Position numbers and translations under genes: made by a program. From contig NC_090779.1 of the NCBI RefSeq assembly GCF_040054535.1, positions 22,810,501 to 22,874,500 of the forward strand: a DNA stretch of 64,000 nt. Reading direction: 5' to 3'. This DNA comes from Antennarius striatus. Lineage: Eukaryota; Chordata; Actinopteri; Lophiiformes; Antennariidae. Each line of letters starts with the position of its first letter. Position 1 is the first letter of the stretch. The notes beneath the pieces were generated by a model. That model was not told the DNA's origin. It saw nothing but the letters and a program-made list of their open reading frames with translations, and did not search any database. Of the stretch, positions 31,053 through 64,000 are shown one piece after another.

Positions 31053-32547
31053 TCAATACTGCAGTATCGTCAGCAGGTTACACGTGATGGTGTCTCTGAT
31101 GACCTCAGCGGTGCAGTACGTGTCCCCTTCATACGGCTCCGTATAGGGTTGCCTCAGGTAATTCTCACCTGCCGCCACGTCGGCGTTCCATTCTGGAAGG
31201 AAACCGTCTCCCCGAGTCTCGCAGATGTTGTGTAAAACACAGCAGACAGTCACGATTCTGGGCATCATAGAGATGTCCAGGTCATTCTTCTTCAACAGGC
31301 ACCTCCAGCGGCCTTTGAGGCGTGCAAAGGCTGTGTCGACCACGGAGCGGGCGGAGCTGAGGGTGTAGGTGAAACGGCGCTGCTCCGGAGACAGCTGGAC
31401 CTCCTGGCTGTACCCTTTCATCAGCCACGGCTTCAGAGGGAACGACGAGTCTCCGATGAGATGGACGGGGATCTCCACGCCGTCGAACACGATCGATTTC
31501 TGAAAGGCAGCCGAGGTGTGATGGAGTCAGAAAGATATGGATGTGAGGTGAGCAGATGGGTGCGGGTTAAAAGCTCTACTTGCCCACCTCTCTGGGGAAC
31601 AGGTAGCCATCAGGGCGGTCCTCCGCCTTCAGGTACAGGTCAGAACTGGACAGGACGGAGGTGGTGCTGGTGCTTCCAGGCCAACCAGCGTAGACATCAG
31701 TGAAGCTGGGAGGACAGACATGCAGGTTAGTCCCCAGTCTATCTCTAGAGACCCCCGGTGGTCCGGCCGCCGCTCACCATAGGCTGTGGTTAACCACCGC
31801 CTGCAGGATGACGGAGTACCAGCCCCTCTTGTTGAGGTAATCGTCCGGGTTGTCTCTCGGGGGGCTGATGGGGATGTGAGTCCTCCCGATGGCCCCCGCA
31901 CACTGCGGGTAACACCTGTCCCTGAAGGCTCTCACGGTGTCATCCAGCCGCTGTCCGCTCGGCAGCGACACGAAGCGCCGGTGCAGCCGCTCCAGGATGG
32001 CCGAGGTGACCTGCCGCACGATGACACACACGGTGGCGATGCCAACGCCGAACATCGCGGCGATGGAGCGGTACTCCCCGGAGCGGGCGAACCACCACAG
32101 CGCGATGGCCAGTCTGCGGCGCGGTTCGATGGGAAGCCGGTAGTTCGTCCGGCGGCGCTTAATGGCCGGGCCGAGCTGCTGGAGCAGGAAGTCGAACGTG
32201 GCGCGGCTCACGTGGAACTGCGTTTTCCACTCCACCTCGTCGAACGACTCCGCCGACGACCACAGGTTCCGTCCGGTGCTTCGATCCCGGACCCAGATGT
32301 GTCTGCTGGTGGTGGCGATGAGGCTCAGGGCGGCGGCGAAGGATGACAGCACGAACGCCCTCCTCCGGCGCAGATACTGGCGCCGCCGCCGGTTCCGTTC
32401 CATCATCTCCCGCGCCCTCCTCCGCCTCAGCAGGGCCGCCTGGAGCCGGTACAGCTCGAACAGCTGGCCCCCGAACACAGGCGCTACTTCCAGGCTCAAC
32501 GAGGAAGAGAGCACCGCTGCTATCAGCGTGGAGGTGTTTGGGTCCAT
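31053..32547 (-). CDS. HARBI1-like Harbinger transposase-derived protein
   Basis: Three exons (31778-32547, 31588-31705, 31053-31499) join in phase to 444 aa. The first part is an Arg-rich helical region, followed by a DDE-type nuclease domain of the PIF/Harbinger (DDE_Tnp_4) class: FDFLLQQLGP, ALWWFARSGEYRSIAAMFGV, DVYAGWPGS, LIGDSSFPLKPWLMKGY and ARLKGRWRCL. The expected first catalytic Asp (family GAIDGTH) is replaced: the window reads GAIGRTH. The usual Glu of the VVENAF-type motif is Asp (SVVDTAF). The ORF is open and GC/CpG-rich, with two introns and no terminal inverted repeats seen, which fits a domesticated gene more than a live transposon. Fish have several such loci annotated as nuclease HARBI1-like. 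Confidence 0.88.
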
Positions 32548-32729
32548 GCTGAGCTGGACGGAAACATGAGCGGCGCATGTTTATGACGTCAAACTGACGC
32601 TCACGTGGCTGCCTGACCTGTTGTTTTCTGGATTGTGTGAAAATGATGTTTTACTCAAAGTTGGAGTTCAAATAATTTGTGACTATACTATTCAGAATTA
32701 TATACACCATGAAATGTAGCAAGCAGTAT

Positions 32730-34574: not shown

Positions 34575-35537
34575 TCAGGCATATGTGTTGCCTTTGATTA
34601 ATTTGTGGGCATAGTAAGTGCTGGTCAACAGACACGGAATGTAGAGCTTCTTGCCCGTCTCAAATATTCTAATGTCATTTGCCAGGTTCTTCATGGCTTC
34701 ATCGAGTTTTTCCCTATAGACTTGTTTGGCCTTGCTCTCTCCGAAGCGTATGATCTTCTGGGCCTCAGCTTGTAGCTTTTTCCACTTGTTTCCCAGTTCC
34801 TTCAGAATTTCTTTTCGTTCATTCTCTGTCAGGTACTGGCCCATCATCGGCTTCACCTGAAACTGCTCCTTCTTTAGCTTCTGAAGGTACCGAGGGACTT
34901 CACCATAACCCTCTTTCTTTGTGTATTTAACATCTATAACTGCAGACGTCTTCTTTGCTGCTGCGAACACCTGTTTGTTGTGCTTCACAAAATTTTTCTC
35001 CACGTGAAATATCATTAATGGATTGTCATTACGTTTAGGAACGGGTGGTTTCCTTGCCACTGCAGCACGAGATGCTTTTGAATTCGGAGCCATTTCAGGT
35101 AGCTTGTAATCTCTTGAGCGCTTCCTGAGGAAGTTTCCTGGTGATGGCTTGTCTACTGCTGCTGGTCCCATCGTCCTCCTTTCATATTTCTTTGGCTGCT
35201 CATTGGGTGGGAGGTGGACTGGTCGCCAACTGTTGTGTGGGGTGCGTTTTTTGTTGGACACATCACAGTCCTGTTGAGCAGCTTTTTCTGTGGTGCAGTT
35301 GGTTGGTGGGTGAATCTGCTTATCCCAAATTCTATTGTGGTTTTTGGGCAGATTCCATTCATTGATGAAATTGCAAACATGAGCACGTACTACAGCTACG
35401 TCCTTGGTGGGGTTGGGTAGAAGACTCCTCATTTGAAGCCTATGGTTAGTCATATTCCTCTTAGTGACCATGTTTTGCATGCCTTTCACCGTTTTTTTTT
35501 TCTTTACTTCCTTGTCGAGCTTTGAAGATGGTGCCAT
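34575..35537 (-). CDS. Intronless enkurin-domain protein
   Basis: Single open frame of 320 aa. Residues about 125-315 align with enkurin (ENKUR), an axonemal/sperm calmodulin-binding adaptor and TRPC partner. Visible matches are MGPAAVDKPSPGNFLRKRS, ARKPPVPKRNDNPLM, YGEVPRYLQKLKKE, YLTENERKEILKELGNKW and a C terminus ending ANDIRIFETGKKLYIP. The first about 120 residues are basic and not recognised. ENKUR normally has several exons and about 250 aa; here no intron interrupts the domain, which suggests origin by retroposition. No poly(A) tail or target duplication was identified, so it is old. I see no frameshift. It could encode a testis or cilia protein, but that is inferred only from the family. 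Confidence 0.85.
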   Translation of the reverse strand: MAPSSKLDKEVKKKKTVKGMQNMVTKRNMTNHRLQMRSLLPNPTKDVAVVRAHVCNFINEWNLPKNHNRIWDKQIHPPTNCTTEKAAQQDCDVSNKKRTPHNSWRPVHLPPNEQPKKYERRTMGPAAVDKPSPGNFLRKRSRDYKLPEMAPNSKASRAAVARKPPVPKRNDNPLMIFHVEKNFVKHNKQVFAAAKKTSAVIDVKYTKKEGYGEVPRYLQKLKKEQFQVKPMMGQYLTENERKEILKELGNKWKKLQAEAQKIIRFGESKAKQVYREKLDEAMKNLANDIRIFETGKKLYIPCLLTSTYYAHKLIKGNTYA

Positions 35538-41570: not shown

Positions 41571-41786
41571 ATATATAAAACAAATTTATGACTTGTTTCT
41601 TTTGCTCCTGAGAGGTTTGGTGCAGTGTGCATTAAGTTGTCTTCCTTTCATGAAAAGGGAAGTTAGTGTTTGGTGTTTCATCGCTGGCCGCTGGCTTTGG
41701 CTTCATGGGTTTCAAGTCTCATAGTGGCTGAAATAAAACAAGCAGCTGCCTCCAGTCAAATCTCATGGTGAGTTCAAGTACCTCCA

Positions 41787-44700
41787 TCAGATCTGATGGT
41801 TCCTCATTAAAACCTCTACGTACTCCTGCCTGGCCCTGCTGACGGGGTCCAGGTCCGCCCACGAGGCAGATCCCACCGGGGACAAACGGGCGCCGGCTGA
41901 GTCCAGCTCCACTTTGGCTGAGGACCAGAAACACAGTTAGCAGCAGCTACACCTGCAGCGGCTGTCAGAGACCAGACAGAAACTCTGAGAAGGTTGAATC
42001 ACACATTTCAAGTCAGTGAACTCACCATCGTTTAATTCTTGGGTCACGTTTTTAGCCAACTCGCTCCGCATCTGGAAAAAAGGTGTCGTTAGATTTGAGT
42101 TGTAAAGTAAAACTGTAAAACATTGATGCATTTAAAAATAACAGTTCACCACCAAACAGGACAAGTTAGTCTCAGATGGTTGAATGGGAATAAAATGAAG
42201 TGGAATGAAGCAGGATAAGCCATGAAGCACGCTCTGCTTTAGAGAACAGTTTCTGCAGGCCTTTAAAATCAGTGGAACATATGAATGCAGATCAAGTTAG
42301 AACCACGAAGAGGGCTGAGACTAAAGCCTGGATGGACCTTAGTGAGGAAGTCCTCAGCCTCGCCGCTCTGTCGCTCAGGAACAGGGCCGGACATAGAGAC
42401 CCCGAGCCTGGGGCTCCTGTTGGAGGGCCCCAGCGGAGCCTCGTAGTTTGAGGATGAACCACCAGAATCCAAGTGCAGCGAGGGGCCCCCACGACTACTA
42501 GTGAGCAGAGACCTGCTGCGCTCACTGAGTAGCTTGGAATTGGCTTCATAGAGTCGACAGTTAACCCTGTGGTGGACAGGGTGGGGAACAGGAGGGGGAA
42601 CAGGAGGGGGAACCAAGTATTGAAAACAGTTCAAAGTATCTCCTCCAAAACTCTCAACTGAAAACCAATCAGAAGCCCCATCAAGGTTGGGTCAGGTTCC
42701 AGTGTTGCTAACGCTAATGTTCTGTGTGTTATAAACGTTACAGTAATTCTATAGAAATATAAAAAATAAGACTTCCTGTATGCATTTCAAATTAAAAGCA
42801 CTCTATTGCGTCCCTGGACAGAAGCTTCATTTTGCTAAACTTGGTCAGAAGGGTCCGTTCGGCCCGACCAAACGCTTTGGTCACCTCTCAAGTTTGGCTT
42901 CCAGGGACTTGCGGAGGCGGAGCTCCTCTCTGTACAGCTGCTGGTACTGCTCCAGCTCCAGGCGTGAGGATTCTCGTTGGTTCAGGTTGTCCCGCTGGAT
43001 GGTGCGAGCTCGGTCCACTTCCCCCTCCATCTCCTGGATCCTCTGCTTTAGCTGGGCGCGCAGGAAGGCCTCATTGTTCTCTCTCATGTGATCCAGAGCT
43101 TCCTGGGATGCAGCCTGGGACTGAGAGACAAACACAGTCTGAAGTCACTGGAGAGGCCACACCCACAGGTGGAGCTTCCTGCTTTGAGTTTTAAAAGGTA
43201 CGGGCTGGGGGGCTAAATCGGTGGTAGGCAAAGCAGAATTTGTGGATTTAATACCTGAAGATCATAAAATGTTGACCTGCAGGAAGACGTTGACTTGATC
43301 CAGCTTCTGCTGGACGTCCTGTCGGGCTCTCTCCTCCACGTCCCGCCGGTACGCGTCCAGCTGGTTCTGCTCCACCTGACAGGCCTCCAGCCGGCGCCTC
43401 AGGTTCAGGACCTCCTCCTCCAGCTGCCTCTTGCTTCTCTCCAGCTCCTCGTTGTTTTGGCCGAAGCCCTTGAGTGACGCCAGCTGATCCTTCAGGTCGT
43501 CGTTGGACTTCTCCAGCTGGCTGCGCCGCGACGCCTCCCTGTCCAGCTGCCTCTGTAGGTCCTCCACCTGGTCGAGAAATGATAAAACACCTGACGGACT
43601 CCAGACGTTGTTCAACAGGAAGTGTTGAACCTCACTGAGGGTAGCGTACAAACCTTATCTTTCATTCGTCCTAAAGCTCCTTCAGACTGTCCGGTTCTGC
43701 CGAGGTCCGTCCGCAGGCTGCTCACTGGAGAACCAAACTCATGTCCCGTCACGTCCTGATCCCGCAACTTCTTCTTTGCAGTCTTTAATAAAGTTCGCAT
43801 CCTGAAATCCATGGACAGGAAATGCAAAGTAATAAAAATCCACAAACAAATCGGTGTTGAAGCCAGAAGACACCATAGACTGCGCTCTGCTGGATGCTGG
43901 CGGCGTCTAGACAACAGGAAGTGCTGCCAGTGGCGAGGAGGGGGGCAGCGAGGTGTTCAGGAGTCACCTGTACATTTCTTTTTGAAGCTCTGCGTTTCTC
44001 TTCATCTCTTCATCCAGCCGGGTGTCGACGGCCTTCTTCTGCTCGACCACCTTCTTTGCTTTTTTCTTTTCTATCTCCACCTGGAACGAGACGACAGACG
44101 GACTCAAACCACCGTCAGGAGGAACGCTAACGTCGACATACGCAGCACCTTCCAGCACGTGAATGCATCGCTGTAACACCTGTGTGCTCAAGTCTCCTTT
44201 TTCCTTCTCCAGCTCTGCCAGGCGGAGTCCGAGCTTACCAACCCCTGTTCCAGGTGAGAGGTCAGATGTCTGGAAAAAGATTGGATGCCTTAAAATACGA
44301 TGACGACCTCAACATGTGAAGTCATTCAAATACAGGAAAGATATATCTTCCTTTATTAGTCATAAAAACAGACATGGTTCCACTCGTGAGCGACGTGGAG
44401 CAGGACCGTCTGCAGACTCACCACGGCAGCTTCCTGAGCTCCTTTCTGAAGCGCATCGATTTTGTGGGACTGTTGCTTTGCAGCGGCTTCCAGCCTGGCG
44501 TTCTCTATCTCCAGCCTGAACACATGAATGTTGTTGAACACGAATCCTTCCTCCCTTCTGAAGGTTCATTAACCTGACGTGTTTAAATCCAGGTGTTGCT
44601 GCGTGTGGACAGCAGGTCTCACCTCTGCACGGCTTCTTCCAGCTGTCTGACCGTGGTGTCAGAAGCCGCTGAGGCGTTCAATGCCGTCTGGATTTCCTGA

Positions 44701-47700
44701 GCGGCGCTGGTGAGCTCCTTTTCTTTATGGTCCAGCGCGTTCTTCAGACCGTTGATGCGCTTCTCAGCTTGGACATACTGGTCCTCACTTTCCTCCAGCT
44801 GCACCACAGACAAACATTTCCAGAGCCATGACTGATGTGTTCTGGTGTTACCGCTGGTGTCGCAGCGGGCTGCCGTTACCTTTCCCTTCAGCCGGTCCAG
44901 GTCTCTGAGGAGCCGAGCCTTCTCCTCCTCCAGGTCGCTACGGTAACGCGTGTTGACTTCCAGAGAAGCTTCGCTCATGGACAGCTTCTTGAGGGCGTCG
45001 GCCAGCTCCTGCTGCAGCAGCCTCAGACCGGCCTGCAGACAGGATCCAGAGAAGGAAGGGTCTGAAGAGGGTCTGCAGCCAAAGGGCTGCAGGTGTTGAA
45101 CCGTCTCACCTCTCGTTCGTTCTTCTCTTCCTCCACTTTGTAGATCTGATCTCTGAGTTCGGCGGCTTGACCGACGAGCTCTTTGTTCCTCTCCTCCATC
45201 AGCTGGACTCTCTCCTCGCAGTCGGAGCGCAGCTTGGTCAAGATGTCGCTGAAGCGCTCTTGGGCGTCGGTCACAGCACGCTCCTTTGCCGAGCCTTTAT
45301 TCTGGGCCTCCTCTAGTTGTTGCCGTAGTAACATGGCCTCGCTCTGGGCTTGGGCTAGCCTCTCCTGCGTGGCCTCTTGTCGCGCTCCGGCACGGCTGAA
45401 AAGCTCCCTTTCGGCCTGCTGAGCCCCCTCCAGCTCCTTGACCCGAGCGGTCGTCTGGTCCTTCTCGCGCTGCAGGACGTCCAGCAGTAACCCTTTCTCT
45501 GCCAGCTGCAGCGTGACCCGATGCACCTCGTTCTCCATGCTATTTGAACGCGCCTCGGCATCGGACAGCTTCTGAGACAGGCTGCTGACCGCCTCGCGCT
45601 GACTGGCTGCTTCACCTGCAAACAAGCGTTCAATTGAAGATAAAGGTTCCAGGAGAAACTTCGAACGTCATCATGACATTAAATATCAGTGCAGTTCAAC
45701 CTGAATCCAGACTGAATCCAAAAACAATGAACAAACCAACGAGTTAATGAGAAGCACAAAGACAGAAGATGGATGACAGACATGAACCATCAGATGAGCC
45801 CAGCTGTGGTGCGTTCACTGACATCCACTAAAGCGAGGTGAGGGAACACCTGCTGCATGTTAACCCCCCCCCACCTGGACCTCCCCCCACCTGTGAGTCT
45901 GTCTTTGAGGCGCTGGTGCTCCTCCTTCTCCCGGAGCAGCGTTCTCTCTGCGTCTCTTCGAGCCTCCAGGCAGAGCTCCGCCTCCTTCACGGCTCCGGCC
46001 AGGCGGGTCCGAGTGGACTCCGCCTCCGCCTGCAGGGTCTCACGCGTCTGGCGCTCGTTCTCCAGGCGGCTCGTCGCCAGAGACAACTCCGACTTCAAGC
46101 TGGTCACCTGGTTGTTGCAGCTGAAGCCGGTCTGGGTCAAGGCTTCGCTGTTGAGTTGGAGATCTCGCCGAGCGTCTTCCAGCTGCTCCTTCAGAGCCTC
46201 CTTCTCCTCCCACAGGTGGCGCTCTCGGAGGCTGCTGGTGGCCTGGGAGCGCTCCAGGTCCGCCTTCAGGAGGTTCAGCTGCTCCTGCAGGCTGGCGTTC
46301 TGCTGGAGTAACTCCCTCTCCCTATCACTGGCCTCAGTGAGCTGAGACAAGGCCTACCAACATCAACACGACACGTCAAGGTGGCTTTGAGAGGCAGGTC
46401 ATCACGTAGAAACCTTGGTGCTAACCATGAACTAACTTGACCTGAGACGACTTTACGTCTCTGAGCGTTACCTCGTTGCTTTTGCTCATGTTCCTCCTGT
46501 TTTCCTCCTCCATCTCCTGCTGCTTACGGAGGTGGCTGCTCAGCAGATTCTCCTGCAGGGTCCGAGCGTTGCGCTCCTGGTCCAGCAGCCTCTCGGTCTC
46601 CCTGTGGGCCTCTTCCATCTGGGGGGTCGACACAAAACCCGCCAACGTTACAATCCCATCAACACCAAACGGGAGAGCGGCCACCAACCAGGAAACGCCA
46701 CGGTGAAAGTAATTCCTGCAGCGTGAAGCGTTCACGTTCCAGCAGGTCTACCTGCTTCATGTTGTTCACCAGGGCTCCCATCTCCAGCTCCAGATTCCTG
46801 AGGCTGAGCTCCACCTTCTGCTTCTCCTGCACCTCCAGCTGCTGCTGCTCCTCCATCCTCCTCAGCTTGTCTCTGGTGCTGCTGTACATCATGGAGGCAT
46901 TGCTGCCATTTTCCTGCTCCTGTTTCAGCTGGAATCTACATCAAATAACCAATTACACAAGATGTGATGGTGACGACAGGATTACAGAGTAATCTATTAC
47001 CAGGAGGTACTTCTCACTTCAGGTTGGTGACTTCGGTCTGCAGCTCCAGCTGGTCGCGCTCTAAGCCAGACTTCAGGTCTTTGACTTCCTCCAGGGATCG
47101 CTTAAGCTCCGCCTTCTCCATTTCAAGAACGACCACCTTGTCGGACAGGTAACCATGGCGACCCTTTGCCTTCTGGATGGAGCGCTCGTATTCGTGGAAA
47201 ATGTTCTGCAGCTTCACCATGCTCCTCGAGTCTGAGACACGAAGATGTTTATAAAATGGATTATGTGAAATTAAGTCTTAATAGGGGAGGGGCTGCAGTG
47301 GGGGGGGGGGCATACCCAGAGTGGCTGAGTCCAGCTTCTGAACCAGGAGGGAAGCGTGTCGATATCCTGACGTGGGGGAGTCCATGTCATCCGTGGCCGA
47401 GTCCGATGACTGAGTGATGTCATCAAAGTCTTCCGCCATCTCCGTTTGTTCAGGGCTCTGAATACGAAAACAAACCTCAGCGTTAATGTGGTTCCACGTT
47501 TTATTCTGCATCACGTAATAAAAGCATCAACAGAATCGTTCTTTCACCTTGTTTTGCTGCCGTCCGCCAGCCGTTAACCTGGATCCAACAAACACCAGAA
47601 AGAAAAACGGGATTATTTAGAAAACTTCTGCAAAGACTTTAGAGCTCTGGGAGCTGAATTAAAGTGTGGTTGAAGTGTGATGGTGTATATTTGAATAAGC

Positions 47701-50700
47701 TCACTTGAAAACCTCACACTGTCACGCTTTTTAACTCCACCCACTACCTGTCAAGTGCCCAACCAATCACGGTGCATCTCCCAGAAGGGATCACGTGAAC
47801 AAGAGCTCTGTTTAATGTCCTCTAACGCTGTACACAAGAAAACCCCGATGCTTTATTCACCAGGACCGAACTCCCGAAGCCGGAGTCTACCCAGATGGCT
47901 GGACCGTAACGCCGAAGCGGCCTTCGACTTTGCGCTCGTCCATCCCACACACACCGAGCCGTTACGGCTTCATCGGATACAGCGGTTTGTTTTCTTGTGA
48001 CGGCGAAGAAAGAAAAGAAGAAAACAAAAGAAGTCTGATACTATTGTTTTATCGTGGTATTTCCACGGGTTCTGGACCCCCTGACCAGCTCCGGCTGGGA
48101 GATCTCTTTCTTAGGTCTTGAACTTTTACCTCTTGGGGGCCACAGGCAGCGGCCCCTGCTGGACTCCATCCTGACTGGACAGGAAACCTGAACTGCTGTC
48201 AGGTTTTTCAGCTCTCATGTCTTTCAGTGCTTCTCCATCAGCATCCAGGGAAGCGCTGGATTTCTGCACCTCCGCTCCAGATCCTGTCGTCTCTTTACAA
48301 ACCTAAAGAAAAAACCAAACACACCCAGGGATTAATATTTGACAACTGCACATGAGAGACAAACTTAAACAGGACGTGTGTTGCAGCAGGATGTGTCGTC
48401 TTTGTGATGCATAATTTATTGTGGCGCCTCCCTTTGGAGAACTAACACCTGACTGTGGTTACTACAGGGACATTAGTGTGTAACAGCATCGCCACACCTC
48501 TGCACAATACTGTATTTTGTAATACTGTATTGATTTAAAAAACACAGGAGTGGGTTATAGATATTTTTTTTCCTTTGTTTCATCTAGAATTGTGAAAAAC
48601 TGTAAATGTAGATCCTATTAAACTTCTAATCACATTTTATAAACATCCTGTGATCGTTAATCAATGACTATTGTTTGATTTTACAGCCTCAACCTGGGTT
48701 TCATGCATTGCAACCACTGCTGTTTCAAAATAGACAAAGCTCACTTATGATGGGCTGACATGAAGGTAAAAGCAGAATTCAATTCAATAAGCAGCAAACT
48801 GAACAAGTTTAATATGTTCACACTGCATCACCTAGAAGGAGAGAGTTTATACAACAGAATCCATTCAAAGTAAAGACACATACAAAAAGCCGATGCGTGA
48901 TGAAAGACGGGTCGCGTCTCTAAGCTTTGTTCAGCCGTCCTGAAGGAATCCAAAGCTGAAACAAGCCAAGGTTTATTTGACCGCAGCACAAATAAACTTC
49001 AACAGATCAGATTCTGTGTGGTTGGTTAGGAACACACAGATATGTACATGCAAGAAGAACTCTTCTACTCGTACACAGATCTACAGAATATAAATATCAA
49101 CACACTGCAAATGAAAATCAAAGTAAAGAAATAGATCATCAAGAGGTGAAACTAAGCACACAGATGAAATGAAGTGAGAGAAAAACAACGTGGCCGGACG
49201 GTTCTGGGCTGTTTGGATTTAACTCACATGAATCTACTGCCTGATTTTTCTCCTTTTGGTGTCATAGGTGGGCACAGAAAGAACAAAACAGACAAGAATA
49301 TAAGAACCAAGTTTGGACTTAAACTAACATGATAATCAAAGGAACCTGTCAGTATTGAATTTTCTTAGATCCTCTTAAAATATTAGCTTAGTGACATTTC
49401 CATGAATCTGAAGTGGAAAAACGTTTCTACTCATGGAACAAAATACAAATGTGTGAGGAAGTTTTGTCTGAATTTTCATGTGATTCCCTTAAAATAGGGG
49501 AAACAAACAGTTCATCTCTCAAACCTCGACTTCGCTTTGTTCTGATGTCATTTAACACCAAGTGGTCACGAGTGATAGTGACCGACCCTGTGTTTGCTTC
49601 GTGCACCAAGAAACATCTGTAGGTGCTTAGAGAACAAAAATATTACCCTCACCTCTTTTAAATGTTGTTAAAAGCTGTCATTTTGTTAATATTTAAGGAC
49701 TCTTAAATTCAGCAAACATTATAGACCTTTGTCTTTGGGTCCATTCATTTTCTGCATATCAACGGTGTATTTTATTTCTCTGTTTGCAAAAATTCACGGG
49801 GGATGGTTTGTTAATGTGTTAAAGATGTTATATCCTGGTCATCTCTCACCTTTTGTTGCTGCTGTCCAGGTTCTACTTCATCCTGACTGTCTTTGGTCGC
49901 TGGTGACGGCTCAGAGGAACCTGAGGAGACAGAGTTTTACCCAGAGCTCTGGACATACTGTATGCACACAAATATTATCAGACCTGTGATCCTCACCTGG
50001 TTTAACCACTGCCTGAAGTTCAGCTGTGTGTTGAAGCTCAAAGTTGTCTGTGGTGGACGAGGATGTCAAACGATCTGGTTCCCAATCTGATTCTGAAGGT
50101 CAAAGACAGAAAGCGTTTCACCGCTGGGATCAAACGTTTCGTTTCAGACGCCTGACCGGCCTTACCCTCTTCACTCTCTGGTTTCTGAGGAGCCGTCTTC
50201 CTCACTCGGGGCGCAGGCTGACGGGGGGGGCTGAGGAGTCTCTGGATGGAGCTGATGCTCCTCGGAGGTTTCGTGGGAGGCGACACCACGTCGTCTTTGT
50301 CCTGAGCTTCTTCAGAAGGATCGGAGCGCTCTGGAAACTCCTCGAGTCCAGGAGAGGCCATCCTGCAGCCGGGCAGGGTTCTCTTACTGGTGTCTCTTAC
50401 TTCATGTCACAAAAATATCACATGCATTCAATTCAGTTATTGAGATCAATTCATGTTTTTCAATTCTTGCTGCATGAGATGGTTCCTGGAATGATCCGAC
50501 TAAAGAATGATTAAAAAAACACCTACTGTCTTTCCTCTCTTCTCTGACAGGGGGAACCTCTGGGGTTGATATGTTTCGCTTCTCTTCATGTGACATCTTG
50601 GGAGTTTCAGAGCAGGACTGAAAAAGAAAAATCCATGATTCAGCATCGTCTTCAGCATCAGAGGAATCTTCTTCTCTCACAAAATCGAGCTCCGTGTCTC

Positions 50701-53700
50701 CATCAAATCCTCCTAGTTGATTATTTTCTGCAGCATCACTTTCGTCATCGTTCTTTCCCGTTTCTCTTTCAAACTCTTCCTCTTTAACCTCAGCAGGTAA
50801 AGTTTCGATGTGAAACGTGTTTTGGGGTGATGACAGTAGGTAATCCCTCCCAAGGCTGTCGTCTTCATCAGAAAACTTGGATTCCACTCTGACCGCTGAA
50901 ACAACACAATCCTCCTGTATGGCTAAAGTCGCTGACATTGCATAACTTGTAGTTCCAAGTGGGCGTTCGTCTCCTTCGTCTGTTTTGTGATCGTTCTCTT
51001 GGGAATTCTCATCTGCATGAGCTGGATTGGTTTCAGTGTGAGCGGTGTGTGTGTCGGGTAAGTCCTGAGCATCATCACTAACTTTAAAGGCACCGGGAAC
51101 CGAGGTCGATTCTACTGATTCAGTTGGCTTCAAATGAGCCACACAGCTCTTGTCCCCCTCACATTCATGTTCTTCATCATCCTCTTCCTCAACCTCATCA
51201 TCCCCTACGTCTTCTTTTTCTTCATCATTATCGTTCTCCTCCTCTTCCTCCTCCTCAGCTTCCTGTTTGACTGTCGGTTCTGGTTTTACTACATGAAGGC
51301 TGCTCCTCTGTTCCATCTGCTTGTTTAAGTATTTGAAACAAGAACAGGAGACAAAAAAGTTGAAGAGCTTCATCACAAATATTTATATTTACCTGTCTGC
51401 AGCCTGGATGGGGGGTCGAGGTGATCTGGGAAACTCTGGATGGGAAGGAAGTGGGGGAAGGATCTACTGGGTTCTGCAGAGCATTGCTGGAAGGTGAAGC
51501 CTTTGGGAGGGATAGAATTCTCTGCACTCGCAGTGCCGAAGCTAAAGGCAGATAAGGATCCACGATTACTATTTATTTTACTATCAAACCAAAAGCTATG
51601 GAGGAACACTAAGTTAATAGAACTCAAAGCTTTTGGTACCTTCTCTCGTTTTTAATTCAATCATTTTCCGCAGGTTCACCTTCTGTGGTTTCTGAAAGAC
51701 AGCAAATTAAGTCCTGCATGGAATTTAAGAAAAATAACCTTACAAGGACAGAAATGTAGTGCCAACCTTATTGCTTAAATTCAACTCATCCTCCTCTGAT
51801 GAAGACCACTCTGTAGTACTTTTTGAAAACCTGGGGTAGGGATGAAGAAGGAGTTGAAGCTGGAAGTTTAATCTCTGTCACGGATAATGATAGGATATCG
51901 TACCCACCGACTTGAAGACTCTGAATGGGAATTGTCATTGAAATCTGAAGCAAAGCAGAGAAAGCTGTTGTCAATCAATAGATACCGAATGTGAATCATT
52001 TTTAGAGGGGCAGATGTCAAAGTTTCTGTAATATGACAAGACTGTGAAAAGCACCTGAAAAGAAGCACTATTCTAAGCAGCAACATAAAGCTGTTTGTGC
52101 AGACAGGAGGAGGACGACTGTCTGTCCAGACTGACTAATCTTTACTGACAGCTTCCATCTAAATTTTCCTAACAAGTTCATTTCTATAAAGTAATACCTC
52201 TCCCTGCTTCATTCGCTCCTCGATCTTAATCCAGTCAAGAGGTAGTGCAGGAGGAATAAATGAAATAATCAAAAGTCAATAACATAATAGAAATAATAAT
52301 GTGTCATGCCACTTAATTTACTAAAATGTGATGAAAATTTATCATAAATTGTGTACCAACCTTCCGTGTCAACGGCTGCTCCATCCAAACAGGAACCTGT
52401 TTCAGCGTTCTGAGAAGAATGGCCCAACAGGGAACTTTTCTTCTTTGTACTCAGACCATGAGGCAACATGGACTGACCATTGTTTCTCTGGGTACTATGC
52501 TCAATGATCAGAAGGGAACAGCTGCAAGGGAGGCAACAACGACAACAACAACAACAGGAAAATGTCAAGATCTGATGGTTCTGCTGTTTTAGCTGTACCT
52601 GTATATCTGTGCTGTGCAGGGAAAGTACAAGCAGAAAAATTATAGAGATATTGTTTCAGGTCAAAGTTCTACTCACACCACAAACACACACATTATAAAA
52701 CTGAAGTACTGATCTCAGAACACAGTAGTAAAGACAGGAAGGGCAGCTTACGGATGATGCCCGTTCATCACTGCGTAGTCGTCAGCTGACCATCCCTTGT
52801 TATCCTTCAGGCTGATGTCTGCGTCAAACCGTAACAGCAGGCGCAACATGCTGATTTGTCCGTTGCCAGCAGCCATCATTAACGGGGTCCTGCAGGTCAA
52901 ACAACCAGCAGCAGGGTCAAATGTCAGCAATGGATTAAGAGACATTAAAGAACAAATATCAACAAACACTTGTTGTAGTTTTTGAGTTGGAATGTTTGTG
53001 TCAGCATTCACCCAAAACAAGTAAAGAAAATGTGAGCTTGGCTTAAAAAGTGAACAATATCTAGTGTCCAACATCTCTGTAAAGTGTGACGGCTCTATCT
53101 GGGGTTGGCAGGATCGTAAAAGCTGGATCGCTATTGTGATTGGTTTAGAACCGACCTCTGATCTTGATCCATGTAGTTCACATCGGCGCCCTCCTTCAGG
53201 AGAAACTCTGCCATCTCTGTGTGATCCTCACGGACCGCCACAGTCAGCGGTGTGAACGCCTCCTAAAGGTGACATCACAAACAGAGTCATCCACTGAGAA
53301 GCAGTAAGTCTTTATTACCAATTATCAAATGCTAGGGCTACAAAATGAGAGGAAATGATCAGTGCAAGAGAGGATTTATCACCAGATGAGTTGGATAAAG
53401 AACTTTTCAGGCTGATAGTTTTTTTCATGGTGATATGAGCTGTGATGTGATGACATGATGCTTTAACTCATTGGGACACGGGGTTTATGTCAAATATTCA
53501 TCCAGGCTTTAACATCTTAGCTTTTTCCCATCATTTAAATAAATCTGCTTTATTCAACATCGACGTGTCCTGCTGTTGGATTGAATATGAGGAAGGAAAC
53601 ATTTTACCGTATTTTGTGCATTGATTTCAGCCCCGTGCTCCAGCAGCAACGCAGCAGTAGAAGCTGATGAGACGTGTGCTGCGAAATGAAGCGCTGTATT

Positions 53701-55113
53701 TCCATTAATATCCACCAGGTTGGGAACAGCATGATTCTCCAACAGGATCTTCACACAACGTTCATGCTGGCATTGCACTGCCTGATGCGGTAAATGAATC
53801 ATCAAGCCACAAAGTTTAAAGAAATGACACCGAAGACGATCCATTCCAGCAGGAACAAACACACCTTACCTTCATCAAGGCGGATCTATTCTGATTGTCA
53901 CATAGGTTGAGCTTTGCCTTGCTCTCCACAAGGAGCTGCACCACCTCAGCATGTCCACTGGCACAGGCGATGTGAAGTACAGTTCTGCAGAATAAAGGAG
54001 ATCAATTTATGACACATAAATAGTGTTGTTTGCACAAAAACATTTAATATTTACTGCTTTTAAAATCCATTGTTTCAATCAGATTCCAATACTTTGAAAT
54101 TGAGTTTTACAATAGCACTGCATATGTAAACTCAAGCTGAATTGTCATCATGTTAAAGTTCAGTCAGTAGTCGACTGTCTCATGTTTTATTACACGCAGG
54201 TCTTTAAACACAGGTCTTCCTGTGTCTGCTGCATCTAAACGACTCCTATTCATGAATGAATCTCATTTCAACAAGATTCTTATATCTGACTCTAGATCTT
54301 CAGGTACCAGTAATTCTGTGTGTTCTCATACAAAACATAAATTTTGCCACTGTAGAACAAGGTATATACAGTATCTTGAATAAGTTGAGCCACTTAGCCA
54401 CTTTTTACCAGCTTATTTTACTGACTCTTGTTACGATACATCGGGTTCATTCTTCATAAGCGAATTACATCAACATTGATAGCCTGTAGTTTTTGAATTT
54501 TACTTATTTCATAGCTCGACTTCAGTCACTGTTACATTATATTCATTTGAGACAGCTTATTATCTACTACGCTTCAAAGTCTGGGAATTCTATATACATA
54601 TACATCTATACATAATTGTAAAACACAAAAACAGGGGAGTCCTTTTTAAAATTGTCTATCAGAGTATATGCATAAAATTTGAGTTACAATACTATTATTT
54701 TTTATTACAAAAATGCTGCATTCATCTGTGGGATGAAAGTTGGATGTATTTCCCTGATGATGACGAATAACTATGTAATGTGTGCAAAGAATATACCAGA
54801 CATTATGATTATAAATCAAGACTTCTACCTAATTTGATGTTTAATCTTTTTATTATTATTACAGTAATGGTTGTAGAGGAATAAATGACTCCAGTTTGTG
54901 ACATCCCTCCTACCTGTTCTCCCTGTCGAGTTGATTTAAATCATTCTTTTTCGCAAGCCGCTTTAACTTTTCCAGATCACCGGCTGCAGCAGCTTTGTGG
55001 ACCTTCCCCAGGTCCTTGTCTTTGAGGTCATAGCCGAAAGAAAGCAAACTGCCCCTGTCAGGGGTGGCGGACGAGGGTCGCTTTTTCTTGGCAAAGCGGA
55101 GGATCTTCTTCAT
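41787..55113 (-). CDS. ankrd26: Ankyrin repeat domain protein 26
   Basis: Centriolar distal-appendage protein in mammals. Thirty-three modelled exons join in phase to about 1,980 aa (human about 1,710): 54914-55113, 53870-53984, 53608-53781, 53156-53262, 52752-52889, 52361-52521, 51908-51944, 51767-51830, 51640-51691, 51393-51541, 50527-51316, 50166-50399, 49997-50093, 49850-49920, 48130-48302, 47548-47578, 47316-47457, 47018-47231, 46752-46928, 46472-46618, 45891-46353, 45110-45615, 44880-45032, 44623-44798, 44422-44515, 44180-44269, 43968-44080, 43654-43801, 43277-43567, 42885-43120, 42338-42566, 42026-42071, 41787-41911. MKKI start and DLGKVHKAA, ankyrin repeats in exons 2-5, acidic exon 11, FDDITQSSDSATDD, long coiled coil with MSEASLEVNTRYR and QAASQEALDHMRENN, C terminus ARQEYVEVLMRNHQI. 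Exon 12 acceptor is the least certain. Confidence 0.93.
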
Positions 55114-56519
55114 TTTACAGGTTAGTTAAAAATGGTTCCCACCATTAACTCCTCAACCACAATTTAATTTAAACCAAGACGTCTTCTGAAATGATATTTT
55201 TAAATAGCACGTAATTACGAAGTTAGAACACTATTTTATCACTAATTACATTATGAACCACCGAACCACGCAGGTTTTTTAGCTCCTGTCACTGACTGAT
55301 GGCTGAATGGACACAGTTAGCATCTTAGCTTGAGCTTGTTACCATGGTAACTGACCCAACCAGTGCTGAGCAAGTACAGTACAGCTAACGGATGCTATCC
55401 TCCAAACTCTGATTTGTCATGTTTCCAGTTTATTGTGAAATGTGTATCTTCTGTTAGGATATCACAAGATTCTGTTTTAGGACTTGAAAGCTGTTCTTGC
55501 TAAGTTTATGCTAAGTTTATGCTAATTAGCGAAATCTACATATTAAAACTATCGCTGCCAACCAAACACACACTTCTCTTAGTGTACTCACATGTAGGAG
55601 GTAATTTGTGAAGGAGGAAGGTGAATATGTAACACTAATATTTACACACACACTGCGCTCTTCACACTAACTAGAAGACTAACCTGTTGATTGTCGGTGT
55701 CAGTCCATTTGTAAATACAGTCCCTGAAGATAGAGAGCGCCTGGTACCTGCTAGCAGCTTCCTGTTGATCAGCCAATCAGAAACGAGTAATTTCTTTGCG
55801 GCTTTGATGTTCAAGGTTGGTTGACAAGACACCGATTCATTCATTCATTCATTCATAGATTTGTTATGTCAGCAGCAATTGTCTGGAAATCGTAATAACT
55901 ACGCTTCCTTCATATTGTCGATGTCAGTTTAGTACATAGTCAGATTTAAAAGTATTAAACATCAAATTGTTATAATTCACTAGCCTTACATTATAGTAAT
56001 ACAGTAATAACTGTCATGTGATGTAACAGAGACTCAGGTAAAGTTCTTCATTTAAAATAAACTTACAATCTAAATTACTCCTATGTGGCAGAGGTCAGAC
56101 CTAGAACTTATTTAAACCAGTCTGTTTTTCCAAATATTAATTATTGTTAATTTGAGTACTGCATTAGTAATTAGGACCTAATTAGCTGGGTGTTTAAACA
56201 ATTAAATGCTACCCTATTATAACTGAAGTTTAATGGTGGGTCACTACATATGTAACAGTGTAAATAAGTGTTTTTGTAATGACGTTACAAAAACACCACA
56301 GTATGGAGTCAGGTTGAGCTGGCTATGGTTTAGTAAATCTGTACATGTGATTGAATGTGAATGTTCAGTGTGATTATTGTGTGCATATTATGTTATTGTA
56401 ATTAATCACACAACCACTATATGATTACTGTGGACAACCTAGAGAGACGCTGGCATGCTCTAGTTAGTCTTGACATGAACAAGATACGCAGGGAATATGT
56501 AACTGGCATGCTGATGGCA
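55114..56519. other. Divergent intergenic region, ankrd26 promoter side
   Basis: The stretch left of about 55800 should hold the ankrd26 promoter and 5' UTR. No coding exon found. A CATT tetranucleotide run occurs near 55837-55855. Transcription leaves in both directions between here and 58.4 kb. Confidence 0.45.
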
Positions 56520-57294: not shown

Positions 57295-57370
57295 CTTCTT
57301 CAGCTGTCGTGGGTCACGGGGTTGCTGGAGTCTCAATACAGGTAGGCCACTCCTGCCACATGCTGGACAG
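57295..57370 (+). repeat. Dispersed repeat fragment
   Basis: GTCACGGGGTTGCTGGAGTC is the opening of the dispersed fish repeat seen at 30120 and 41340. It is truncated here where the (CA)n tract begins, the same order as in the copy at 41340. Confidence 0.6.
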
Positions 57371-57373
57371 ACA

Positions 57374-57499
<126 letters not shown>

Positions 57500-57804
57500 T
57501 AAATAACATTAAATTATCATGATCATTTATAACAGATTATTTTTATGGTATGATGTTTGAAAATTTCTTAATATTATAACCATGAGGAACATTTGTTTTA
57601 TCTAAACTGTCTTATATTTTCTCCTGTTTTCAACAACAGCAAACTAAATTCATCATGCTTGGATTTCTTCAGGATTATATCCGGTAAGAGATCCATCATC
57701 ATTTTGTCAAAATATTGTTTGGTTCTACAGTATATTGAGATCAGTGACATTAACTTCCTTAATTCTACATGTCTGTCTGTTTGGATAAACACATTTAATT
57801 AAAT

Positions 57805-58392: not shown

Positions 58393-59887
58393 AAGGACAC
58401 AACAGAAGATGTTCACTGTCCCTGATTTTAAAAAACACCATGTGGACATTCTGGGTGACACGGCCCTTCATAGAGCAGTAGAACAAGGATGTCTGCCTGC
58501 TGTTGCTGCTCTGTTGGCAAGTAGGGCTTATGTCAATGCAGCAAATAAGGTGTGTTTTATTTCTCTACATCACAGTTACTCAGCCCCAGGAAAAATATTT
58601 GGCTCCATCAGCCCTTCATACAGAATAGACTTATTTAAATTGAGAGTAGAACAGATTCCGAAACTAGAAATTTCAGAAGTTCTTGCTCTCACAAACACAA
58701 ATTATTGTCTGTTTGTGATTATGATGTTATTTGTAGCTTGGACAAACTCCGCTGGCTGTGGCGGTTCAGGAGGGTGAGGAAAAGATCGTGGAGTTGCTTC
58801 TCAAGCACGAAGCGGACGTCGACTTCACGGACAAAAGGGAAAGGTCAGTCCTTAAACTTCACATTCTGGGTACATGTCTCATCATCTGAAAGAAAGAGTT
58901 CAGTAAAGGAAATCTCACTCATCTACTCAGCCTTGTGTTGATAGAGTCTGGAAACTATATTTTAGCACAACAAACATTTGGAACTCAACCAGAAGAGAAC
59001 TGTCAATCTCTGCAGAACTTTGTTGACCTGCTAGCTTGTCTTCAGTTGTTCAGCTGAATGCTGATACCATTGGTCGCTGAAATGTTTCCATGTGTTTGAT
59101 GAACTTGTTGCTGTGATTGTTTTACCTGCAGAACTCCATTGATAATGGCCGCTAAAGATGGAAAGGTTTCCATCGTGCGCCTGCTGCTGAAGTACAACGC
59201 TGACATCAGGCTTAAAGACCGGACAGGACAATCCGCTGAGGACTATGCCAGGAGGAATAGACACAATAGGTGAGTTTTACCTGCCATTGGATAGGAATTT
59301 CTCCTGCGTGATGAATGTGGGTGTGTCATGAGTAGAAAAAAACCCCTGATCCTTGTTATGTCAACCCCAATGGCCAGCAGCAGTCAGAGAACATCTACAG
59401 GTAGTTTAAATCAGTCTCTGAGAGGCGGCTGTTCCTGGTGTAGCGTGATCCTCATGCAAAATGACCATGTAATGAATTTATCCAAATATCTTAACATGAG
59501 TGGAAACAGAAGGAAACTGGTAGCGTCCATTATAAACACAACTTGCTAAATCCTGTCATGTCTAAGCCCACATTTAGTCTCTTAACTTGGTTTTAAAGTG
59601 TAATCTGTTATTTATTATTAGGGATTAATCTTATTTCCTGTGTACATTCTCACAGCAGAATAAAAACAGCACATATAAACTTTGAAATATGACAATTTCA
59701 CTGTTTTGACTGTTATAGATGTGCCTTTATGATCAACCAGTGTCAGCCCAAGAAGCTCAGACCAACCATGTTTTTTAAAATGCTGCCTAAGGGAAGCGTA
59801 TCATTGGGCCACTCTTCCCAAGAATCTCCAGAAGGTCCTGGTGTTTCCAACGAACAAGAAGAAAGACTGGGAACCCGCAGACGTGAG
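58393..59887 (+). repeat. Ankyrin exon module 1
   Basis: First visible a-b-c-d module. Its introns also match those of the later modules: the segment after exon a has GGAAAAATATTT and TTATTTAAATTGAGAGTA, found after exon a in module 3 and nearly so in module 2. Confidence 0.85.
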
Positions 59888-62800
59888 GTAGAGATAATGA
59901 AAGTTGTAGGTGTTTGTATGCGTTTGGTAGGTGTTTGTTCATTTTCAGTGTCCTTATCAGTCCACCTGCCGATTTCCCATTCCATTTTTTGCTCAGTCAT
60001 AAATAATACCCTTAGATACTTTAACTCCTCTGCCTGGGTGAGGGACTCCTCTCCTACCCAGAGTAAGCACTACACCCTATTTTGGCTGAGAATTATGGCC
60101 TCTACTTTAGTGGTGCTGGTCCACATCCCAGCCCCATCAATTCTGGCTGTAAACCGCTCCAGTGCGAGTTGGAGGTCACTGTTTGACAAAGCCAGTTGGA
60201 CTACTCCATCTGTAAAAAGCAGAGACAGAATCCAAAGGCCAATGAGCCTGACAGCTTCACTTGGTTGTCCATCGAAGTCTGTCCAATGAAGTGAACAGAA
60301 GGGACAGCCCTGGTGGAGTCCAAACACTGCTGGAAATGACTCTGTCTTACTGCCGCCAATGCTAAACAGATTCCCCGGAAGATGCCTCAGGGGACACGTT
60401 AGTGAGCCTGGTCCAGGTTCTAAAAGCACATGTGGATTGGTTGGGTAAACTCCCAAGTTCATTTTAGGGCTCTAGCAAGACTGTGGAGCTGGTCCCCTTT
60501 CCGGGACTCATTCCCCGACCAGGAAGCACAGGGAAACAATCCTTTCATCCATGGAGAAAACACCAAGACGTAAGCAGACAGCCAGGAGCATGATTAAGTC
60601 CACGTCAGCCGTCCGCCTCTCACCCAATACAACTCCAACAAAACACCCATCAGGACGTTAGTTCTGGAACCAGAGCTCAGCGTAGAGGTGAGGCCGACTA
60701 TATCTAGTCATAACCTCTTGCATAAACTTGAGGTCATTCCCCACCAGAAGTGTGACTGTTCATGTCCCTGAAGTGAGCTTCTACAACTGGGGAACAGACC
60801 ATGAATCCTCTGCCTTCAACTGCTGCCCAAGCCACACTGCACTGGACTCCTGTGGGTGGTGGACCCACAAGAGGACAGTCACTCTTTTGATACTGGAAGG
60901 AATCTTTGGTTTGGATAGTTTGTTCATTTGAGTTGTCTGTTTTATCAGAGTGAAACCTGGACCTCGGCCCTGCTGAGGAATGACTGTGACGTGTACCTGG
61001 TGGACGGTGATGGTAACACAGCCCTTCATAGAGCGGTAGAGAAGCCGAGTATGTCTGATACTGCATCTCTGCTGTGTCGCAGGGCTTACATCAATGCAAT
61101 AAATAAGGTGATTATATGTTTTATTCCTCCACATCCCAGCTTCTCAGCCTCAGGAAAATATTTTGATATATACAGACCAGATTTATTTAAATTAAGAGTA
61201 AAACAAGCTCAGAAACTGGCAATTTTAGAGTTTCCATGACGTCATGGACTAGAAATGTGTATTTCCTGGATAAAATATGAGTTGATAAAAAGATTGGACA
61301 CACATTTTAATACATTTTATACTCAAACACTTAATCTCTGTACATGAGCCACTACGTCCTGAAAGAGATGGATAGTCTTAAATATGAAGGATCATCATAG
61401 CCAGAAGTATGTAGAAGAAGTTAGCTTCACAAAACTTTTACTAGAATAATTAAAAGAGTAAAGATGAGGATAACATCTGTGGGGCATAGCAGATTATCTA
61501 ATTATGATGTCATTTTTAGTTTGGATTAACTCCTTTGGCTGTGGCAGTCCGTAAGGGTTACAAAGACATGGTGACGTTTCTTCTGGAACAAGGAGCTGGT
61601 GTCGACATCGGGGACATTGAAAAAAGGTGAGTCCTAAAAGATCACATCTCCTCCTCTTAAAAAAGAGTTCAACAAATGAAAATTCAGTCATCATCTACTC
61701 AGCCTTGAGTCGATAAAGAGTCTGGAAATGATAGCTTAGCCCAAAAAACATTTCTGGAGCTCAACCTAAAGAGAGCTGTCAATCAGTGTAGAACTTTGTT
61801 GACCTGCTTGCTCGTCTTCAGTCATTTAGCTGGATGATAATACTATTAGGTGTCAAAGTCTGGAAATGAATCTTCTCATGTGCTTGATGAGGCTGTTGCT
61901 GTGATTGGTTTTACCTTCAGAACTCCGCTGATGATGGCTGCTGAAGACGGAGCGATAAACATGCTGTACCCTCTGCTGAGCTTTCGTGCTGATGTCACAC
62001 TTAAAGACTATTCAGGACGAACAGCTGTGGACTATGCAGGCAGGAATGGACATTATGAGTGAGTTGTGCTTCTTGCCTTTGCAGTCGTGTTCTTAGATTG
62101 GGCGTTCCCCTGTGTGATGAATGTATATGTGTTATATAGAAAACAGAACTGATCAATGTGCCTTATATAGAGATCAATATTGGTTGATTAGCGCAGCTCT
62201 ATCTAGTGGATGCAGAGTGCAACCACAGCCACTACAATAGTTTCTCTTATAAAGCAGTTATAGGCCATTGAAGGTGCACCTTATAATCCGATGCACTTTA
62301 TAGCATAGAAAATACAGGTCGTTTAAATCAGTTTATGAGAGGAGTCTGCTCCTGTTGTAGCATGATCCTCATGCAAAATTATCATTTAATGAATTTATCC
62401 AAATATCTCAACATGAGTGGAAACAGAAGGAAGCTCTCTGTCCATTATAAACACAATTTGCTAAATCCTGTCATTTCTAAGCCCACAATTAGTCTTTTTA
62501 CTGGGTTTTAAAGTGTAATCTGTTATTTATTATTAGGAATTCATCTTTTTTTCCTGTGTACATTTAAAACACCACAGATAAACTGTAAAATATGACTTTT
62601 CCACTGTTTTGACTCTCTTGCAGATGTGCCTTTATGATCAGTGCCTATAATCCCAAGAAGGTCAGACAAACCATGTCTTTCAAAGACATGCCTGATCATC
62701 TGAAAATTACATTTGTCCATTCATCCCAAGATATTCTAGAAGGGCGTGGTGTTTCCAAAGACGAGTTGGAAAGCCAGGTTGCCCCCAGAGATGAGGTAGG

Positions 62801-64000
62801 GATGCTGAAAGTTGTCTTCTGGTTTTAAAGTTCAAACTCTACAAAGATTTTGAAGATTTATTTTTCTTCCTTGATATCCTGGATTGCTCCTACATTTTTA
62901 TTTTATCTCTGTTCTTTTTGACTCTCATTTTGATGTTTCAATTTGTTCATTTAGTTGTTCATTTTCCTCATTTTTAGCAGTGTGAATTTTAAACCAACAC
63001 ATCTCTGTTACCTACATGACAATAAAAACAGACCTTACTGTAGGTAATCCTGGATGAACACATTTGATCCTTTAATGAATGAAATTTGTCACTGGTCGTT
63101 TTGTTCATTCATTGTGTGGATGATTGTTTATTCACATCACTTCTCTGTCTATTAAGAATGAAACCTCCATCACAACGTTGCTGAAGGCTGACCCTGAACC
63201 GTTATGGGTGGACAGTGTTGGTAACACACTTCTTCATATTGCAGCAAAAGAAGGATGTGTGTCTGATGCTGCCTCTCTGCTGTGTCGTAGGGCTTACATC
63301 AATTCAATAAATAAGGTGATCATATGTTTTATTCCTCAAAACCACAGTTCCTTCGCATCAGGAAAAATATTTTTAAACCTCAGTTCTTAATACAGAACGG
63401 ATTTATTTAAATTGAGAGTAGAACAAGCTCAGAAACTGGCAATTTAAGAGATTCTTCACTAGTGCATGGAGTCATCTGGGGAAAATTCCTCTGTTACTAC
63501 TTTCTAATACTCTGAACCTCTAATATTTGAACAATGTCTGAAGAATGATGAATGTGGACGCTAAAGAAGAGGTATTCTGGCCATCAGGTGAAGATTCTCG
63601 ATGAGATCTTATTTGTTATGTAGTCTTGATGATTATCGTTCAGTTAAAATAATATGACCGACTGGAAATTTGCATTTCCTGGAGAAATTTTGCATTGAAA
63701 AAAAAGATCTGACACAGATTTTCACTTATTTGATAATGATAAATTTACAACAGACTGAAAATCTATAAATAAATCATCATGTCCTTGAAGAGGTGAACAT
63801 TTTGAAATCTGAGGGGTCATGGTAGCCAGAAATATACAGAAGAAGTTAGCGGCACAAAACTTCAAGAATAAGTAAAAGAGTAAAGATTAGGGTAACAGCA
63901 GTGAGGTTTAGTAAAGCTTTTGCTCTCACACTAATGATTTAATACAAATTAATGTCTGTTTGTGATTATCATGTCATATTTAGTTTGGATTAACTCCGTT
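58393..64000 (+). CDS. Ankyrin-only gene built of tandem ankrd26-derived exon modules (partial)
   Basis: Ten exons, GT-AG, all phase-compatible: 58393-58549, 58737-58843, 59132-59269, 59719-59887; 60949-61107, 61520-61626, 61921-62058, 62624-62795; 63157-63315, 63984 to window end. They form repeating modules a-b-c-d: a = ankyrin repeat (DGDGNTALHRAVE), b = ankyrin repeat (LGQTPLAVAVQEGEEKIVEL), c = ankyrin repeat ending KDRTGQSAEDYARRN, d = linker starting CAFMI and containing HSSQ. Exons b (107 nt) and c (138 nt) have exactly the lengths and phases of ankrd26 exons 4 and 5; a and d match exons 3 and 6. Codons in modules 1-2 are open. The first exon needs two nucleotides from an unseen upstream exon, or translation starts at its internal ATG (58409). 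Function unknown. Confidence 0.85.
59888..60948 (-). mobile_element. Decayed LINE insertion between modules 1 and 2
   Basis: The minus frame at 60070-60462 reads as a reverse-transcriptase piece of the L2/Rex type: LHQGCPFC, then LLFTDGVVQLALSNSDLQLA where a live copy would have F/YADD, and TTKVEAIILSQ. The metal-binding Asp pair is damaged. The equivalent spacer between modules 2 and 3 is only about 360 bp, so the insertion accounts for roughly 700 bp. Exact ends are unclear. Confidence 0.65.
60949..62795 (+). repeat. Ankyrin exon module 2
   Basis: Complete module: exons of 159, 107, 138 and 172 nt, 192 codons, entering and leaving in phase 0. Key strings are RRAYINAINK (a), TPLAVAVRKGYKDMV (b), TPLMMAAEDGAINML (c) and CAFMISAYNPKKVRQTM (d). 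Confidence 0.88.
63157..64000 (+). repeat. Ankyrin exon module 3 (cut by window edge)
   Basis: Exon a (159 nt, RRAYINSINK) is complete, with acceptor TATTAAG rather than CAG. Exon b starts at 63984 (TTTGGATTAACTCC, same as module 2) and runs past the end. Confidence 0.85.

Follow-up and report, generated by a model that had tools for sequence, protein, structure and literature searches.

A predicted protein-coding gene with three in-frame ankyrin modules, probably derived from an ANKRD26-type gene, in the fish Antennarius striatus

Tandem exon cassettes of the Dscam type serve isoform diversity. In chelicerate Dscam, the portion of the report drawn on here places such cassettes at the 5' end, in tandem within one gene (PMC4835542). 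The POTE family, in the excerpted parts of its description, is derived from ANKRD26, combines ankyrin repeats with a helical tail and is described as primate-specific (PMC7073761). The same parts report that evolution is fast although Ka/Ks is below 1, that some members carry a long inverted repeat, that group III has exons 6-9 duplicated within the gene, and that 8 of the 14 human POTE genes contain an actin retrogene (PMC7073761). Zebrafish ankrd26 is described as having a coiled coil as well as six ankyrin repeats, and the word paralog is not used in the excerpted sections of that report (PMC12067082). No fish gene with a three-module design appeared among the matches listed in the open-licence literature; this agrees with an earlier sequence-only reading of the locus, which knew of no described fish gene of such design. 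An annotated ANKRD26-like entry may already represent such a gene, the sequence searches having covered this genome only.

The locus lies at the end of a 64,000-nucleotide stretch (the window) that comprises positions 22810501-22874500 of contig NC_090779.1 (C4) of Antennarius striatus. One genome was examined (548 Mb, 42 contigs), and the 100 kb following the window, parts of a second C4 locus and parts of a copy on another contig were also read. The array gene of the window is called C4a, the second C4 locus C4b, and the copy on the other contig C2. On the sequence evidence, it is probable that the array is one protein-coding gene of three modules that came from an ANKRD26-type copy, was tripled before C4 and C2 separated, and likely acts as a soluble adaptor.

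Within the limits of its excerpted description, POTE is the nearest parallel, sharing ankyrin repeats, intragenic duplication of an exon block, inverted repeats, fast evolution at Ka/Ks below 1 and, probably, an ANKRD26 origin, with a tail that may likewise be helical. The POTE block in that account is exons 6-9, present twice, whereas the block of the array gene is the equivalent of exons 3-6, present three times. The array gene would be a derivation independent of POTE, and the two are set side by side by description only. As far as the cited portion on chelicerate Dscam goes, both genes have repeated exon cassettes, but the array-gene exons can all be joined in order.

C4a comprises 14 coding exons from 57655 to 65121 on the plus strand, the last 1.1 kb of which lies past the window end (Table 1), and its predicted 635-aa product has three ankyrin modules followed by a short tail. 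The model was assembled manually on the basis of splice sites, homology and phase, and all 13 introns have GT-AG borders. In the spliced protein, Pfam recognizes Ank_2 at E 1e-70, together with nine Ank stretches, so the exon pattern of the modules is not due to chance. The best 60 of 421 matches in a PDB sequence search were ankyrins, DARPins and other ankyrin-repeat proteins, with nothing nearer among them. The tail exons gave only weak, sub-cut-off Pfam matches to unrelated families; judged by eye, the tail is perhaps a coiled coil.

Table 1. Exons of the array gene and related features, in window positions unless a contig is named; coordinates past 64000 continue the window numbering beyond the window end.
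Feature	Position	Strand	Remarks
e1, coding part, proposed start codon (MLGFLQDYI)	57655-57683	+	exits phase 2; GT donor; fits a1
a1, 157 nt	58393-58549	+	enters phase 2, exits phase 0
b1, 107 nt, ankyrin repeat	58737-58843	+	
c1, 138 nt, ankyrin repeat	59132-59269	+	
d1, 169 nt, linker after ankyrin block	59719-59887	+	exits phase 0; aligns with ANKRD26-type exon 6
a2, 159 nt	60949-61107	+	phase 0 to 0
b2, 107 nt	61520-61626	+	
c2, 138 nt	61921-62058	+	
d2, 172 nt	62624-62795	+	exits phase 0
a3, 159 nt	63157-63315	+	phase 0 to 0
b3, 107 nt	63984-64090	+	first 17 nt inside window
c3 fused to d3 remnant, 181 nt	64267-64447	+	
t1, tail exon	64710-64929	+	enters phase 0
t2, last coding exon with stop	65057-65121	+	
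Intron tract, gene conversion candidate, 241 bp	59396-59636 (c1-d1 intron) vs 62313-62551 (c2-d2 intron)	+	
C4b array gene	C4:23364.1-23371.4 kb	-	616/635 residues identical to C4a (97%)
C2 array gene	C2:5682.1-5694.2 kb		318/581 aligned residues identical to C4a (55%)
ANKRD26-type region (not gene limits)	41587-55932	-	head to head with array gene; left arm of inverted repeat
Second ANKRD26-type copy	66.1-88.5 kb	+	right arm of inverted repeat

The start codon would lie in e1. Letters at the C4b edges of this exon are identical, and in C2 a 38-nt ATG exon with identical exit phase occupies the corresponding position; both e1 and the tail are poorly conserved between C4a and C2. An AC microsatellite of 65 copies (57367-57497) closely precedes the first coding exon. 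The 3' end is uncertain, since t2 may stop at its TAA or splice onward at a GTGAGT. A microexon after t2 was considered and dropped; its AG acceptor is present in C4a and absent from C4b and C2. After the last coding exon, 65167-65358 aligns with C2:5694409-5694605 at 79% identity over 197 aligned bases. Conservation of this stretch is as high as that of the best exons, and it may be an untranslated region or an unrecognised last exon.

Exon sets a-b-c-d had been described as recurring at 58.4, 60.9 and 63.2 kb, and their lengths were reproduced (157/159/159; 107/107; 138/138; 169/172) with GT-AG borders and open frames. The accompanying picture of a four-exon module of about 191-192 codons, entering and leaving in phase 0, needs amendment. 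Four exons hold for modules 1 and 2, the phases for modules 2 and 3, and the codon count for module 2 (576 nt, 192 codons). Module 1 has 571 nt, and because a1 enters in phase 2, it is neither a symmetric cassette nor open to in-frame entry from another module. Module 3 has only three exons, as c3 runs directly into a remnant of d3 whose donor context is the same as that of d2.

The proposal of a single gene with an in-frame ankyrin array fits the model well: the d-to-a joins run from phase 0 to phase 0, without stops. Since d1 and d2 exit in phase 0 while a2, a3 and t1 enter in it, not only d1-a2 and d2-a3 but also skips (d1-a3, d1-t1) keep the frame. Before modules 2 and 3, e1 or ANKRD26-type exons 1-2 were sought as marks of separate genes, and nothing convincing was found. 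The linkers between ankyrin blocks are about 56 residues long in C4, and 47 and 25 in C2.

The ten best genome-wide hits for module 2 all lie at one of three loci, C4a, C4b or C2. At each of these the gene has 14 coding exons and three modules, with c3 fused to the d3 remnant, and all 39 introns of the three loci are GT-AG with the same phases. Between C4a and C2, 8 of the 14 exons are equal in length and the other six differ by multiples of 3 (9, 6, 27, 96, 12 and 6 nt), an agreement that is partly built in because splice sites and frame guided the choice of borders in C2. C4b lies 0.5 Mb from C4a, inverted, and holds one ANKRD26-type gene and the array gene in opposite orientation. At C4:23363-23389 kb, this pair forms an inverted duplication with 88-98% identity by piece, mostly 96-98%. 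A lone exon-c fragment at C2:4373.8 kb, 93% like C2 module 1 over 300 bp, stands outside the module counts.

The frames of the array gene are open at every locus. Stop triplets occur at 6.4% of positions in its introns, which predicts about 41 in 635 codons; none is present. Stops in the later modules, which the sequence-only reading had named as evidence against itself, were looked for and none was found, and the C4a, C4b and C2 proteins (635, 635 and 597 aa) are all free of stops. Nei-Gojobori estimates (own script, ranges by bootstrap) give a dN/dS of 0.58 (0.47-0.71) for C4a-C2 and 0.34 (0.18-0.66) for C4a-C4b. Over the 111-codon ankyrin core, the values by position are 0.68, 0.51 and 0.43, pooled 0.54 (0.39-0.72), with that of module 1 (0.37-1.19) not significantly below 1. 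Comparison of modules within one locus, which had been suggested as a check, gives 0.53-0.86, with three C2 intervals extending above 1. The array gene is thus constrained yet fast-evolving.

These results bear on an unlikely alternative, in which the modules are decaying or silent duplicates of ANKRD26 fragments, exon-like yet without a protein. Fast evolution would suit it, at about 0.6 for C4a-C2 and in the within-locus values above, as would the lost domains, the setting of segmental duplication and the solitary exon-c fragment on C2. Yet silent duplicates would not be expected to keep zero stops at three loci, canonical borders at 39 of 39 introns and length differences in multiples of 3, nor a dN/dS below 1 even between two recent copies.

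Coding cores of the C4a modules share 68-75% DNA identity with each other. Each C2 module is nearest to the C4a module at the same position (73, 76 and 80%, vs 68-71% for the others), although the core of C4a module 1 is 75% identical to C4a module 3 vs 73% to C2 module 1. Trees of DNA and protein were built from 10 of the 12 rows, a single ANKRD26-type row serving as outgroup and the other two being left out, and both trees bring together C4 and C2 modules of the same position. Bootstrap values of these groups are modest (69, 85 and 65 for DNA; 50, 92 and 67 for protein), but an AU topology test that compared four locus-wise trees on the same rows rejected all four (p 0.0019-0.0057 for DNA, 0.00001-0.0066 for protein). 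Positional grouping and the rejection of locus-wise trees place the triplication before the C4-C2 split. By dS, the C4a modules are 0.44-0.61 from each other, the C4a-C2 core 0.45, and the distance to the ANKRD26-type gene is 1.09-1.22. Given the positional grouping, this divergence within C4a and the count of three at every locus, the modules are old and ill suited to unequal crossing-over.

The sequence-only reading had envisaged a labile array, in which modules can be gained and lost by unequal crossing-over and their number may vary between individuals; we regard this as quite unlikely. Modules 2 and 3 are indeed phase-symmetric, the introns can be aligned, a 241-bp tract is 88-92% identical between modules 1 and 2, C2 shows windows at 88-94%, and the locus lies between large inverted repeats. 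The lengthening that was proposed is nevertheless not borne out: three modules are present at all three loci, the diverged C2 copy included, they group by position against the locus-wise trees, and the longest exact match among C4a modules is 34 bp. The module number looks fixed at three, and the array gene is soundly described as a new gene architecture, not as an array still growing. A symmetric cassette alone does not make an array labile.

The modules may nonetheless have exchanged sequence. That intron sequence is common to the modules was confirmed: over exons plus introns, aligned columns of the six-module alignment, which is gappy in long introns so that identity values there are rough, give 73-74% among C4a modules vs 69-75% to their C2 counterparts, and C4a modules 1 and 2 are nearer to each other than to C2. 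The c-d intron tract of Table 1 matches between modules 1 and 2 at 89% and 92% in two pieces, or at 88% over 245 bp in a genome search. It has at least seven genome matches, all within the three array genes; the C2 match is at 69%, and C4b module 1 retains only 40 bp. In C2, modules 1 and 2 have windows at 88 and 94% in the same c-d intron. Additionally, some C2 pieces have their best match at another C4 position, b3-c3 with module 1 and d1-a2 with d2-a3. This cross-position resemblance could come from exchange between modules or from uneven rates, and gene conversion between modules likely lies behind the signs of exchange.

The array gene sits in the spacer between two ANKRD26-type copies that form inverted repeats with 81-99% identity by piece. 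We take these flanking genes to be ANKRD26 from their CCDC144C matches and the start of the human protein. In the minus-strand gene the start codon is at 55113, the ankyrin exons lie within 52.75-53.99 kb and a CCDC144C coiled coil is at 44.85-46.93 kb. Between 41587-55932 and 66120-88459, a 3.45-kb coiled-coil piece is 99.2% identical, and the other listed pieces 81-98%; the former hints at gene conversion from arm to arm. PF14915 (CCDC144C) has 15 matches in the genome, five in each of three ANKRD26-type copies, all on C4.

Exons 1-6 of the plus-strand ANKRD26-type gene (67.1 kb) measure 200, 115, 174, 107, 138 and 161 nt and enter in phases 0, 2, 0, 0, 2 and 2, with exon 6 exiting in phase 1. 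Module exons a-d correspond in sequence to its exons 3-6; b and c match in exact length, and modules 2-3 show the same entry phases (0/0/2/2), a correspondence that the sequence-only reading had missed. The array gene therefore shares the exons 3-6 block with the ANKRD26-type copies of C4. Unlike them, it shows neither exons 1-2 nor CCDC144C, it carries three modules where they have one, and its d exons exit in phase 0 instead of 1. A search across 56.2-65.9 kb for exons 1-2, which hold the start and the initial ankyrin repeats, gave weak matches only (E 0.48 or worse), and a search of the 635-aa protein for CCDC144C (PF14915), with E values up to 1 admitted, gave none.

This arrangement raises the prospect that the array is an alternative 5' part spliced into the downstream plus-strand ANKRD26-type gene, with which it shares a strand and whose start codon follows the array stop by 2.0 kb. 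We judge it very improbable, as the array ends in tail exons and a stop of its own, with counterparts on C2, and the downstream gene has a separate start exon. At C4b, moreover, the array faces away from its ANKRD26-type neighbour, and none of the three CCDC144C-bearing places found in the genome is downstream of it. Uncollapsed haplotypes posing as extra copies are barely credible despite the high C4a-C4b identity, given that the C4 copies lie 0.5 Mb apart, inverted, with about 2-5% difference in the main pieces, up to 12% at the end, and indels, that C2 is far more diverged than alleles, and that the case for three modules holds even without C4b.

A separate, three-module gene of ANKRD26-type origin could have arisen in a few steps. 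A copy of an ANKRD26-type gene would have retained the exons 3-6 block of ankyrin repeats and linker while losing the long coiled coil at its C-terminus along with exons 1-2. With a phase-0 donor closing the exon-6 equivalent, this block would have become a symmetric phase 0-0 cassette: because d exits in phase 0 and not 1, the block would permit in-frame tandem duplication. Duplication of the cassette would then have given three in-frame modules, after which the gene would have been copied to the second contig. We infer both the order of these events and the donor change as the cause of duplication. On such a path, a new gene comes from an ANKRD26-type gene by keeping part of it, changing a donor phase so that the block becomes symmetric, and multiplying that block in frame.

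The array protein is most likely a soluble adaptor, its three linker-joined ankyrin blocks binding partners through their ankyrin faces, and it may compete with ANKRD26 for ankyrin partners. In human ANKRD26, the excerpted report maps the PIDD1-binding region to residues 911-1181 (PMC7878771). The array protein probably does not recruit PIDD1 in an ANKRD26-like manner, because the coiled-coil part is absent.

More tentatively, and with somewhat less than even confidence, the gene may be a fish counterpart of POTE: an independently ANKRD26-derived, fast-evolving family that lacks the long coiled coil, with intragenic cassette triplication and spread by inverted segmental duplication, whose product would act as a multivalent ankyrin adaptor or ANKRD26 competitor. 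If this parallel is true, ANKRD26 is a recurrent source of fast-evolving ankyrin genes, and fish offer a tractable place to test the function of such genes.

Other features of the window include a LINE reverse transcriptase-like stretch, noted by eye, at 60000-60470 on the minus strand, in the intron between modules 1 and 2. Scans of the window with Rfam (gathering threshold) and for tRNAs gave nothing. Transposase pieces, presumably Harbinger, lie at 31053-32580 on the minus strand; 31053-31526 matches DDE_Tnp_4, and 31774-32580 is without a Pfam match. Also on the minus strand, 34575-35537 holds one open frame, 320 codons long, in which an Enkurin domain is encoded; it is apparently intronless and could for that reason be a retrocopy.
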